A DNA stretch of 42,508 nt, taken from the IMG/VR virus record IMGVR_UViG_3300012005_000015, positions 1 through 42,508 of that record, one strand, 5' to 3'. Positions 24,811-31,014 of the stretch are shown here, piece by piece (the stretch's first letter is position 1; the number at the start of each line of letters is the position of its first letter). The DNA comes from a virus. The notes under the pieces are model-generated. The model was not told the origin of the DNA and ran no database searches. It saw only the letters and a list, made by a program, of their open reading frames with translations. The translations under genes were made by a program, and so were the position numbers.

Positions 24811-25123
24811 ATTTCAGTTTGAATTCCAAGTCAGACTGGGTGAGGGGCTGCGCCTGCCGGTCGGAACTCCTATGGGGGTGTGGGGGGTCTGGTACATGCC
24901 AGGTGCATAGTCTCAGACTCGGCAGTGCATCGCGTTGCTCTTGTTCTTCTCTAATCACATAGACGCATCGATACATGCTCAATGATTGCAACAGATAGCA
25001 CCTGCGACCTTTGGGTTAGATGCCCAACGATGAGAGCTAAAATCGTCATAATGCAGTCTTGACCCAATAACGTTAGTACGGCTGATATCGAAACATGGTC
25101 ACGTTAGTATCAGTGAGACTCAT

Positions 25124-25400
25124 AATAGGGTACGTCTGAACAGTCGATCTTCTATATAGCTTTTGTCGAAAGTCGATGGTAAGTCTATTAGAATGAATAA
25201 TATAAGATATATATATATATATGGTTTTAGTGAATAATACGGTCAAGACCCCATTTCAAAAGAAGAGTTTTTCGGTCTTGCCCTTATTTGCGCATTATCT
25301 TCTATATACGTATATTTCATATACTGTTGATTCTATTAGACTTAGGATCGACTTTTGCTCATATCTATATATAACATTCACTTGTCGGACGTACCCTAAT
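25124..25400. repeat. Large imperfect inverted repeat, 90-bp arms
   Basis: The arm 25124-25213 aligns without gaps to the reverse complement of 25311-25400; counted by hand, 68 of 90 positions agree. Exact blocks include TAGGGTACGTC, AAAGTCGAT, TAAGTCTA and TAGAAT. The arms flank a ~97-bp spacer. Each arm has a promoter-like spacing (TTGTCG, 17 bp, TATTAG on the left arm). It may be a diverged duplication of a regulatory unit or an origin structure. Confidence 0.7.
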
Positions 25401-25477
25401 AACGTAATCAGGCGCATTATCCGACTAAGACCACATATACCAACGTCATAATCGAAGGGTCTTGACCCCATATAGAG

Positions 25478-27973: not shown

Positions 27974-28010
27974 GACGCCAACCCTTGAATGGGTTGGCGT
28001 CTTTTTCTTT
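27974..28010 (+). terminator. Intrinsic terminator of the rightward early operon
   Basis: GACGCCAACCC / GGGTTGGCGTC form a perfect 11-bp stem with a 6-nt loop, followed by TTTTTCTTT. Canonical Rho-independent terminator. It lies only 23 nt before the next start codon, so the 106-aa gene would depend on read-through or its own promoter. Confidence 0.92.
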
Positions 28011-28032: not shown

Positions 28033-28353
28033 ATGAACCAACCTACTCCACTAGCAGCTGTATTCGCCTTAGGCGCAACGATAGACGAAGTTGCCAGCAT
28101 CCAACCCAATCGCAAGATAAGGCGCGCAGGCGGTCCTAAAACTCGCCTTGCTGCAACCCCTTGCCGTACCAGCTCGCGAACCCCTAGCGCCACACTGTAC
28201 GAATGGTGCGTGGAATGTGTCAACGCAGGACCGCGCGAACGTCCTAGCCAACGTAGGCGCATTCTAGATGCGCTGCTATTCGACGGCATGACACAGGCGA
28301 ACGCGCGCACGTTTCTAGACCGTCTCTTGTCAGAGGTCAGGCGCACAACCTAG
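28033..28353 (+). CDS. Unknown basic 106-aa protein next to the iteron array
   Basis: The ATG at 28033 has AAAGGA nine to ten bases upstream, just after a terminator. The N-terminus is neutral (MNQPTPLAAVFALGATIDEV). The middle is very basic (NRKIRRAGGPKTRLA), then WCVECVNAGPRERPSQRRRI and helices LDALLFDGMTQANARTFLDR, LLSEVRR. High basicity and its position directly before the repeats at 28426 make DNA binding plausible. No known family. Confidence 0.65.
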   Translation: MNQPTPLAAVFALGATIDEVASIQPNRKIRRAGGPKTRLAATPCRTSSRTPSATLYEWCVECVNAGPRERPSQRRRILDALLFDGMTQANARTFLDRLLSEVRRTT

Positions 28354-28362
28354 ACTCTTGCA

Positions 28363-28494
28363 TGACCACCCTGGAAAATGCCTGCACTGATCCCTAAAAA
28401 AGTCTGCACTAAAAAGGGAAAATTGGAAGGGGTGGTCAGAGGTTTTTAGAAGGGGTGGTCAGAGCTGCACTGAAGGGGTGGTCACAGCTTCAGT
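28363..28494. repeat. Iteron-like array, 3 x 23 bp, plus one inverted partial copy
   Basis: GAAGGGGTGGTCA occurs at 28426, 28449 and 28472, exactly 23 bp apart, with partly conserved flanks (CAGAG/CACAG, TTTTTA/CTGCACT). A reverse partial copy, TGACCACCC, lies at 28363. Between them is an A-rich stretch (CTAAAAAAGT, CTAAAAAGGG, AAAATT) repeating CTGCACT. Ordered direct repeats of about two helical turns beside an A-rich segment and a primase gene are the hallmark of an iteron origin. The last unit overlaps the primase stop. Confidence 0.75.
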
Positions 28495-30748
28495 CAAGCT
28501 TGCGAAGGTCTGCAATGAAGTAGGCTTTACCATTCACATTGCGCTTGTACCGCTGCTGCATCTGCGATGCGTTTACCTCCACCAGTGTTCCATCCATGAT
28601 GATTAGATCGATGGCACGACGAAGCGCAAACGATGCGTTCATTCGGTCTTGTTTGAATTCCTTTGCACTAAGCAATCTCTTCGCCAGGTAATGAAACTGC
28701 ACAACCTTATCGCGGTGCATATCCTCGGCAACTAGATACTTCTCCATCGTCACATCAAACGGACGATGAATGTAATCCTTCAGAACTTCGTGGATGCGTC
28801 GAACCTGATTCTGTTCACCTGAATCCGCACCGATGGTGCCTTGCTCGAATCGATTGAGAATGTTCGATATGTCTTTCTCAACCATGTTGCAGGCCCACTT
28901 CGCAATGCGTAGCGTGATGACCGGCGAGAATGGATCGACGCCCACAGCGATCAACGCAGCAAGCTTCAATAGCTTCAGGTGGCCGCGTGTCCATAGTTGC
29001 TTCGTCACTTCGCTATCAGAGTTGTTGATTTTTAGATCGCAGGCGGTGTCAAAGTCATCTGTGAATTGCTGAGATTCGGCATCAAGTAAAACAGGGATTG
29101 CTTCATTTCTAGACTGCATCGTTAGTGCATTCGCACAGAGGGTTGCAACACTCTCCACAAGCGCATCTGACGGCTTCGCTTCGGAGTGGAACTTATTCAG
29201 CGGTACACGCTTTCCTGTGTACTCGATACAGGTAAAGCGCGGCAGCAGGCCGGTCGCAACAATGTCTTCTGTCATGTGCTTAAACAAACTATCAGGCGTG
29301 GTCTCACCCAGGATCGTAAACGATGGTGATTGCACGACCGTAGTGTTCTTTGCTTTCTCGGCATAGATGCGCGGATCAAGCGAATCATGCTTGCCTGATT
29401 TGCTGAATAGATCAAGGATCACTTTGCGCTTGCTTATCTCGGACGTGCTTGCATTCGGAGCACACATCGTCTCCATCATGTGACCGAATTCGCCAATGAT
29501 CGAAACGAAGCATGGAACCTGTGTGATGTAGTTCACCAGGGCTTGACCGGATGCGATGTCGCCAGGACCAACGAAGTCGTTTGCGCCAGGTTGTACCATG
29601 CCGACTTTGCGCATGAGCTTCGAGATACCGGCCTTCGCAGCTTCCTTGCCGCGTCCAGTCGAAGCGAGTACCAGGATGTATTGGTTGAGACCTGTGTTGC
29701 TAACGTTGTAGGATCGCCCACAGATGCCCGCCATGAGGCCGATAGCGCCAGCAAGGGCTATCTCATTCGCCGGTCGCGGCGCGGCCTCGTAGATGAACCT
29801 TGCAATCTCTCCGAGCAACCCAGGCGGCAGCTCCCAACCCTCGCCAAGCATCGGCTTCGGATCGACGCGCTCAGCATCCTTTTGAGCCTGAATCTGTAGC
29901 TGCAAATTGCCCATCAACTGATCCAGTGAGATATCCGGCGCGAGGTTGTCAAAGCTCTTCTCAACCATACGCACAACGTAGTCTTTGCGATGAGCTTTGG
30001 CACGCTTGCCTAACGCACTATGAAGGAACATGCGAGCTATCTGATCGGCGTTGCGCGAATAGAACGAGATGATGTTTACCAGTGCAATATCAGCTTCACT
30101 CTGAGACGTATACCACTGCGCATAGTTACCTTGAAACAACGGCAAGAATTTCTCGTTTGTCTCGCACGCCTTCATATACAAGTCTTCATCCGAGAGCATT
30201 TGCGGCCTACTCATTTCAAGCCCTGGCGCTGCGCTGGTGTGACCGCCTAACTCATCCCACAACCGACTCAGGAAGTAATCGCTTTCGGTGATCGGCTGAT
30301 CGTTGTACGTGTTGCCGGTCATCGTCATGTACCGTTCGCTGCTGTACATTTCGATCTTGGCTCTGCGTCGTCCCTGTGGGATACGACCACGAACAATGAT
30401 GTGCATTCCGTTACCGCTGGGTGACATCTCGCTATACGTTCCCGCAAAAGCTTCCAATACCTTATGAGCGCGTTCAACCTGCCCGACATCGCCGGTCGGA
30501 TCGTCAAGATCGATGATGGTGTATGGGTCTGCGTCACTTAGAACGAAGCCGATTCCGTCGAACGAACCATGACGCGATTGCATCAACGAGATTGCTTCGC
30601 CATAGGTTGACCAATGGCTAGGCTCAGTTACGCTCGCAGGCATCAAAGTACGTGCTGAGTACGGTACTTTAGTCGATTTGTTGTTACGTTGCTCATACCG
30701 CCAAACTACCCATGAGCGATAGTGAGTCATTTCAACTGGAATGCTCAT
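28490..30748 (-). CDS. Primase-polymerase / DUF3987 helicase-like protein
   Basis: 752 aa. The N-terminal ~180 residues are an archaeo-eukaryotic primase (PrimPol) domain of the NrS-1 type: Y10-W13-W16, K27VPYS, DGIGFVLSDADPYTIIDLDD with the metal-binding D80-L-D82, and SPSGNGMHI (109-117). The C-terminal half is DUF3987: QYILVLASTGRGKEAAKAGI, SIIGEFGHMME and FTILGETTPDSLFKHM. The P-loop has GKE rather than GKT/S, which I believe is usual in this phage subgroup. It would prime and unwind DNA at the origin. Confidence 0.85.
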   Translation of the reverse strand: MSIPVEMTHYRSWVVWRYEQRNNKSTKVPYSARTLMPASVTEPSHWSTYGEAISLMQSRHGSFDGIGFVLSDADPYTIIDLDDPTGDVGQVERAHKVLEAFAGTYSEMSPSGNGMHIIVRGRIPQGRRRAKIEMYSSERYMTMTGNTYNDQPITESDYFLSRLWDELGGHTSAAPGLEMSRPQMLSDEDLYMKACETNEKFLPLFQGNYAQWYTSQSEADIALVNIISFYSRNADQIARMFLHSALGKRAKAHRKDYVVRMVEKSFDNLAPDISLDQLMGNLQLQIQAQKDAERVDPKPMLGEGWELPPGLLGEIARFIYEAAPRPANEIALAGAIGLMAGICGRSYNVSNTGLNQYILVLASTGRGKEAAKAGISKLMRKVGMVQPGANDFVGPGDIASGQALVNYITQVPCFVSIIGEFGHMMETMCAPNASTSEISKRKVILDLFSKSGKHDSLDPRIYAEKAKNTTVVQSPSFTILGETTPDSLFKHMTEDIVATGLLPRFTCIEYTGKRVPLNKFHSEAKPSDALVESVATLCANALTMQSRNEAIPVLLDAESQQFTDDFDTACDLKINNSDSEVTKQLWTRGHLKLLKLAALIAVGVDPFSPVITLRIAKWACNMVEKDISNILNRFEQGTIGADSGEQNQVRRIHEVLKDYIHRPFDVTMEKYLVAEDMHRDKVVQFHYLAKRLLSAKEFKQDRMNASFALRRAIDLIIMDGTLVEVNASQMQQRYKRNVNGKAYFIADLRKLD

Positions 30749-30924
30749 GCAATCTTGTTGGCCTTTGCGAGTGCTTCAATCGCTTTGATGAAAATGTCGT
30801 TTATGGCGTGTGTTTGGCCTGTTTTCTTCTCGTAAAAGGCCCGAAGGGAAAGTAGTTGCCGGTCAATATCAGGGGGAAGGCACGCGGTTCTTCCCTTCTT
30901 CTCGGCTTTGGTTCGTGTAGTCAT
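30745..30924 (-). CDS. Small ribbon-helix-helix-like protein (59 aa), probably leaderless
   Basis: The ATG at 30924 has no Shine-Dalgarno, but TAATGT ends 7 nt before it. The stop overlaps the primase start (ATGA), so the two are coupled. The sequence MTTRTKAEKKGRTACLPPDI, then LLSLRAFYEKKTGQTHAIND and FIKAIEALAKANKIA has the basic arm, short strand (TACLP) and two helices of CopG/Arc-type RHH proteins. It probably autoregulates the primase operon or helps at the origin. Family call from layout only. Confidence 0.65.
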   Translation of the reverse strand: MTTRTKAEKKGRTACLPPDIDRQLLSLRAFYEKKTGQTHAINDIFIKAIEALAKANKIA

Positions 30925-30985
30925 AAGGCGACATTACTACAAAGCGGCCCCTGAGAGTAGAAAAATGTTTTATTGAAAAAGGGGC

Positions 30986-31014
30986 TTGCGTTTGTAGTCA
31001 ATAGTCGATAAGGT
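30986..31014 (+). promoter_or_regulatory. Candidate promoter of the replication operon
   Basis: TTGCGT (30986-30991), 17-bp spacer, TAAGGT (31009-31014). Operator site 14 fills the spacer, as at the lysis promoter. Confidence 0.5.
30993..31010. promoter_or_regulatory. Operator-like 18-bp palindrome, site 14
   Basis: TGTAGTCAATAGTCGATA, 11 of 12 fixed positions. It lies inside the spacer of the candidate replication-operon promoter, between the divergent primase and recombination operons. Confidence 0.7.

Follow-up and report, generated by a model that had tools for sequence, protein, structure and literature searches.

What is the repeated element that lies directly behind the primase gene of this phage, and which protein reads it? 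IMGVR_UViG_3300012005_000015 is an IMG/VR virus record, and the window (the whole stretch of 42,508 nt analyzed here) carries genes of the temperate type (integrase, excisionase-like and repressor-like) as well as a replication block encoding a DNA polymerase, a clamp-like factor, a helicase, a Cas4-type exonuclease, a Sak4-like protein, an SSB-like protein and a primase. The primase-helicase gene (28490–30748, minus strand) is overlapped at its start by the gene of a 59-aa RHH-like protein (30745–30924, minus strand) and converges with the gene of an arginine-rich protein of 106 aa (28033–28353, plus strand). A first-pass annotation of this DNA proposed an iteron-type replication origin between the two convergent genes. 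The GC skew of the window shows no useful switch.

The layout described in that annotation was confirmed. The noncoding gap of 136 bp from the stop of the 106-aa ORF (28353) to the stop of the primase (28490) holds three exact, identical direct copies of GAAGGGGTGGTCA (TGACCACCCCTTC on the minus strand) at 28426–28438, 28449–28461 and 28472–28484 on the plus strand, with an exact period of 23 bp. The inverted partial copy is also present, as TGACCACCCT at 28363–28372 (AGGGTGGTCA on the minus strand), matching 9/10 of the core on the minus strand. The stretch described as A-rich is an A+T-richer spacer (28384–28425) with CTGCACT copies, but the enrichment is modest (62% A+T); the best 40-mer in the gap reaches 65% A+T, within the top 2% of the window, and the spacer is a weak candidate for an unwinding segment. 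A predicted hairpin, AGCTTGACTGAAG / CTTCAGTGCAGCT (28463–28500, minus strand; z about −2), has the third repeat in its loop region and overlaps the primase stop; this repeat adjoins the end of the primase-helicase gene. No ORF of at least 60 aa spans the array, and the period of 23 bp is not divisible by 3. The repeats have not shortened the primase, because its C-terminus aligns to the end with those of its relatives.

The array stands out from the rest of the window. Its Tandem Repeats Finder score of 79 is the window maximum and was reached in 0/100 dinucleotide shuffles (maximum 77, mean 43.6), and an exact 13-mer occurring three times within 100 bp was seen in none of the 100. No further copy of GAAGGGGTGGTCA was found in the window at up to two mismatches. 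A direct DNA similarity search against known phages and plasmids gave no useful match, no exact pair of GAAGGGGTGGTCA occurred in the genome or viral contigs scanned, and a literature search on the decamer returned nothing relevant.

Conservation was assessed among 80 viral relatives recovered by a profile search with the primase. The closest relative found, L198 (record G411, 51,392 bases), encodes a primase 63% identical over its whole length and keeps the gene order, with counterparts of the RHH-like protein (37% identity), of the 106-aa ORF (34% over 41 aa) and of a 99-aa ORF (window 27634; 36%). At up to one mismatch G411 contains exactly two TGACCACCCCT sites, and both fall in the same syntenic gap, bounded by the primase gene and the 106-aa ORF counterpart, for which the chance expectation under a dinucleotide model is ~2e-10. 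These two good copies are 73 bp apart, compared with 23 bp in the window. A perfect 10-bp hairpin, nested in a larger stem-loop (z −5.3 and −3.7), holds a degenerate third copy, TGACCAACGCT, in its loop, such that one repeat copy lies in a hairpin loop in both phages. A scan of 2.9 million viral contigs for TGACCACCCCT-N41-71-TGACCACCCCT, which made no use of the primase, returned only G411; the spacing range was set after L198 was known, so the scan shows the rarity of the pair and is not a blind discovery. The repeats are thus nonrandom, kept in synteny in the closest relative and absent elsewhere in both records. Neutral intergenic DNA at the divergence of L198 would hardly be expected to retain this word through chance. 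A chance or assembly artefact, of negligible probability, is ruled out by the shuffle tests together with this conservation. The conservation itself concerns a single relative, L198/G411. The repeats of the window are missing from most of the remoter relatives that share its primase, a result that the first-pass annotation had listed as counting against an origin here, whereas the closest relative keeps the core. Recurrence of the repeats at the same spot in the closest relative suggests that they are probably docking sites for starting DNA copying, and the array is a candidate site for binding of the initiator.

A word of this kind has another known setting. The ends of IS21 elements carry direct repeats spaced 23 bp apart (PMC10122671), and a search for two GGGGTGGTCA words 8–20 bp apart recovered loci of three classes, namely ends of IS21 elements, phage initiator genes with internal repeats, and repeats in coding sequence. 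The IS21 loci found carry IstA/IstB beside TGACCACC repeats, and IS21 elements in Bacteroidota loci have TGACCACCCC repeats with a period of ~24, whose left-end copies point inward and whose right-end copies point outward, in the orientation seen in the window. Since orientation and 23-bp period both fit an IS21 end, the array had to be considered as the terminal repeat of a decayed IS21-family element or of a miniature derivative. The likeness extends to the TGACCACC core, the direct repeats and the ~23-bp spacing, but neither istA nor istB lies between or beside the repeats, the boundaries of the array are unlike the IS21 termini observed, and the decamer pair occurred in 1/398 Pseudomonadota genomes, that one being the seed genome (a phylum that may not be that of the host). 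The array is instead kept, at a single locus, as a phage element: in a relative with 63% primase identity the word occupies the syntenic position, with another spacing, which supports a functional phage site and speaks against a transposon remnant. Although word, orientation and period fit, the IS21 reading was rejected on this syntenic conservation and is very improbable.

Repeats inside or beside replication genes are also known from lambda-type O iterons and HTH_36 initiators, with which the array shares this position. In four unrelated phages (L132, L138, L141 and L159) the GGGGTGGTCA pairs lie inside HTH_36 or O-like initiator genes, and their presence there, even in A+T-rich phages, suggests a constraint at the DNA level. 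The array of the window, unlike these, is noncoding, and no O-like or HTH_36 protein was found among the window proteins scanned. Separately, a G+C-rich phage contig (L284:8798-8947) carries four copies of GCTCCTGACCACCCC with a period of ~47, adjoining a terminase small subunit gene.

Which protein would read the array? The first-pass annotation had suggested that the initiator may be either the 106-aa basic protein or the RHH-like one, but nothing favors either, and the primase-helicase is a better candidate. The 106-aa protein has no sequence homologues in known phages or viral contigs, and its weak counterpart in G411 was reached through synteny alone. Around the start of the RHH-like gene (window 30916–31008) there are TGTAGTCA direct repeats and an inverted pair, ACTACAAA...TTTGTAGT; these repeats are likely the autoregulation site of that gene. 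Elsewhere in the window, a strong terminator-like hairpin (27974–28001) with TTTTTCTTTG behind it immediately precedes the 106-aa ORF. Either small protein could nonetheless bind the array if it were a regulatory or terminator-like site between the convergent genes. The convergent ORFs flanking the gap, the arginine content of the 106-aa protein and the TTTTT that follows the G411 hairpin within a few bases are all consistent with such a role. However, no terminator-like site was found in the gap of the window, the RHH-like protein is expected to act at the TGTAGTCA repeats near its own start, the core is kept in G411 even though the neighboring gene differs there (an extra 55-aa ORF), and operators located 3′ of both genes would be unusual. 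A regulatory or terminator-like site is thus improbable, though clearly less so than an IS21 remnant.

The primase-helicase is the likeliest binder of the array, as predicted from its architecture and position. It belongs to PHROG 3022 and shows similarity to the helicase-binding domain of NrS-1, with a weak match to DUF3987. Its N-terminal part corresponds to solved structures of NrS-1 and related primases. An AlphaFold2 model (pLDDT 89; input of 48 window and IMG/VR sequences) gave the NrS-1 primase as top match in Foldseek, followed by many MCM helicases. The protein is therefore predicted to combine an AEP domain (PrimPol, NrS-1-like) with a DUF3987/MCM-like AAA+ helicase, followed by a C-terminal helix-strand domain. 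The last elements of the model are helices 685–692 and 705–719 and strands 722–725 and 742–745, an order that, in our reading of the whole-protein model, probably represents a winged helix. Across 46 relatives, the last 110 residues have diverged faster than other parts of the protein (median identity of 27% vs 46–49% elsewhere). Such divergence would be expected of a specificity domain. The C-terminal region of L198, which shares the repeat word, is 53% identical to that of the window; this correlation comes from one pair, and L198 is closer throughout.

Helicase-type initiators that read repeats next to their own genes are known from other mobile elements. In SaPIs, the C-terminal domain of the Rep helicase recognizes iterons directly downstream of rep, and Cch2 of SCCmec binds direct repeats downstream of its own operon (PMC7581432). 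The phage locus resembles both in having a helicase gene, a DNA-binding C-terminal domain (putative here) and short direct repeats just downstream; it differs in that its helicase is fused to an AEP primase, and the repeats, the host and the sequence are unrelated. In plasmid pRN1, where a small regulator gene precedes the PrimPol gene, replication depends on a 100-bp stem-loop located 54 bp 3′ of the latter (PMC4234260). The order of a small regulator gene followed by a PrimPol-helicase gene is the same in the window, and a required or predicted element directly 3′ of the PrimPol-helicase is shared with pRN1 and the Bordetella phages BIP-1/BPP-1 (PMC4234260). Conversely, the pRN1 element is the 100-bp stem-loop and not a set of iterons, and the pRN1 helicase is of SF3, whereas the helicase half of the window protein matched MCM/DUF3987, and not SF3, in the searches run, with the AEP present. 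By analogy, the SaPI, SCCmec and pRN1 precedents would support the following mechanism. The primase-helicase or a partner would bind the repeated TGACCACCCC core, most likely through the fast-evolving C-terminal domain (a putative winged helix), the bound protein would assemble as an AAA+ hexamer, and the hexamer would help to open and prime the DNA at the array, as in SaPI/SCCmec and pRN1-type replicons, which have their origins immediately 3′ of the initiator gene. We infer that the primase-helicase binds the repeats and that replication may start at the array. That the array is a conserved iteron-type binding site, forming part of the phage replication system and read by the adjacent primase-helicase or a partner, is the best explanation, a tentative one with a little less than an even chance.

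The main challenge to a start at 28.4 kb comes from the region that the first-pass annotation had itself named as an alternative start, 25.1–25.5 kb. This part of the window belongs to 1.1 kb of A+T-rich noncoding DNA between the repressor-like and early genes and contains an imperfect inverted repeat (25123–25401) with 99-nt arms (25123–25221 and 25303–25401) that are 76% complementary and 81 nt apart, a candidate rival origin or operator region. Palindromes of the GGTCAAGACC type occur at window 25241 and 25458. Known phages that share the primase, including Septimatrevirus, KL1, Variovorax VCLv11, Halfdan, phiAxp-1 and others, also share the motif CTAAGTCnTTGATnnTAAAGGAAATATAA, often as a convergent pair with arms 150–185 bp apart, and in most of them it sits 3′ of the primase gene; in Acinetobacter phage W9 the motif is upstream of that gene. 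It occurs among repeats directly behind the primase in Halfdan, Eidolon, phiAxp-1, L235 and L252. The dyad, in some cases a single copy, lies 3′ of the primase in L161, L164, L160, L186, L188, L189, L200, L214, L217, L235, L252, L263, L273 and G411 (L283:12911-13065). The motifs had been picked by eye in relatives before they were tested on 68 held-out loci. There, 10/35 matches lay in the 400 bp 3′ of the primase, where 5.1% would be expected (p 7e-6), and every match above 15 bits was on its 3′ side. From these sequence data the CTAAGTCnTTGATnnTAAAGGAAATATAA dyad is a candidate for the origin of the whole phage group.

In the closest relative this dyad maps elsewhere. With a model that included the held-out loci and excluded G411 and the window, the G411 dyad scored 18.3 in the gap between the repressor and early genes (0/200 permutations), at the counterpart of window 24.65–25.77 kb and not of 28.4 kb. 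Thus, the candidate origin of the family and the 28.4 kb array do not coincide in this lineage. The iteron-origin reading is partly supported: the array is real, its position and core are kept in the closest relative, and it lies 3′ of an initiator-like primase-helicase. In the window, the counterpart of the G411 dyad region carries two TAAGTC words 164 bp apart besides the 99-nt-arm inverted repeat described above. On the other hand, the dyad does not reach significance in the window (p 0.36), even though its three highest-scoring pairs are all located at 25.18–25.51 kb. Three GTTATG(A/T)CATAAC palindromes, of the kind that repressor operators would have, are also present in the G411 region, which may therefore be an immunity or early-promoter region. 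These sites (L283:12925-13376) are flanked by ATTCTAAAG and are likely operators of the adjacent repressor-like gene. At 28.2–28.7 kb of the window the convergent dyad is absent (p 0.69), and the core motif from the relatives, scored in the 28.4 kb gap, had its best match at 28390 without significance (p 0.18). The 25.1–25.5 kb region is a serious rival for the actual start and argues against a sole origin at 28.4 kb. Should replication start there, a possibility that we rate at somewhat more than one chance in three and below the docking-site reading, the array would be an accessory site acting in initiator titration or handcuffing, as a transcription roadblock between convergent genes, or in partition.

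Arrays behind the primase are found in other members of the group as well, in unrelated form: they lie directly 3′ of the primase in L186, L188, L189, L235, L252 and L255. Such arrays were more frequent 3′ of the primase than in random windows (7/77 vs 5/231; Fisher p 0.013), but not in comparison with other intergenic gaps (p 0.12–0.22), and a general rule that iterons always follow this primase is unsupported by that second comparison. A broader arrangement can still be considered, namely a two-part origin 3′ of the primase throughout the group, Septimatrevirus and Kilunavirus included, in which the convergent CTAAGTCnTTGATnnTAAAGGAAATATAA dyad would be combined with iterons that change fast and are recognized by the likewise fast-changing C-terminal domain. 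The window would have these parts separated, at 25.2 and 28.4 kb. This arrangement is rather unlikely on present data. No published origin for the phage group sharing this primase was found in the literature searched. With the array, the conserved dyad and the modeled primase-helicase, a single protein and two short stretches of DNA are available for testing. If the C-terminal domain reads the array, paired changes in iteron and domain among the relatives would offer a clean system for the evolution of initiator specificity in PrimPol phages.
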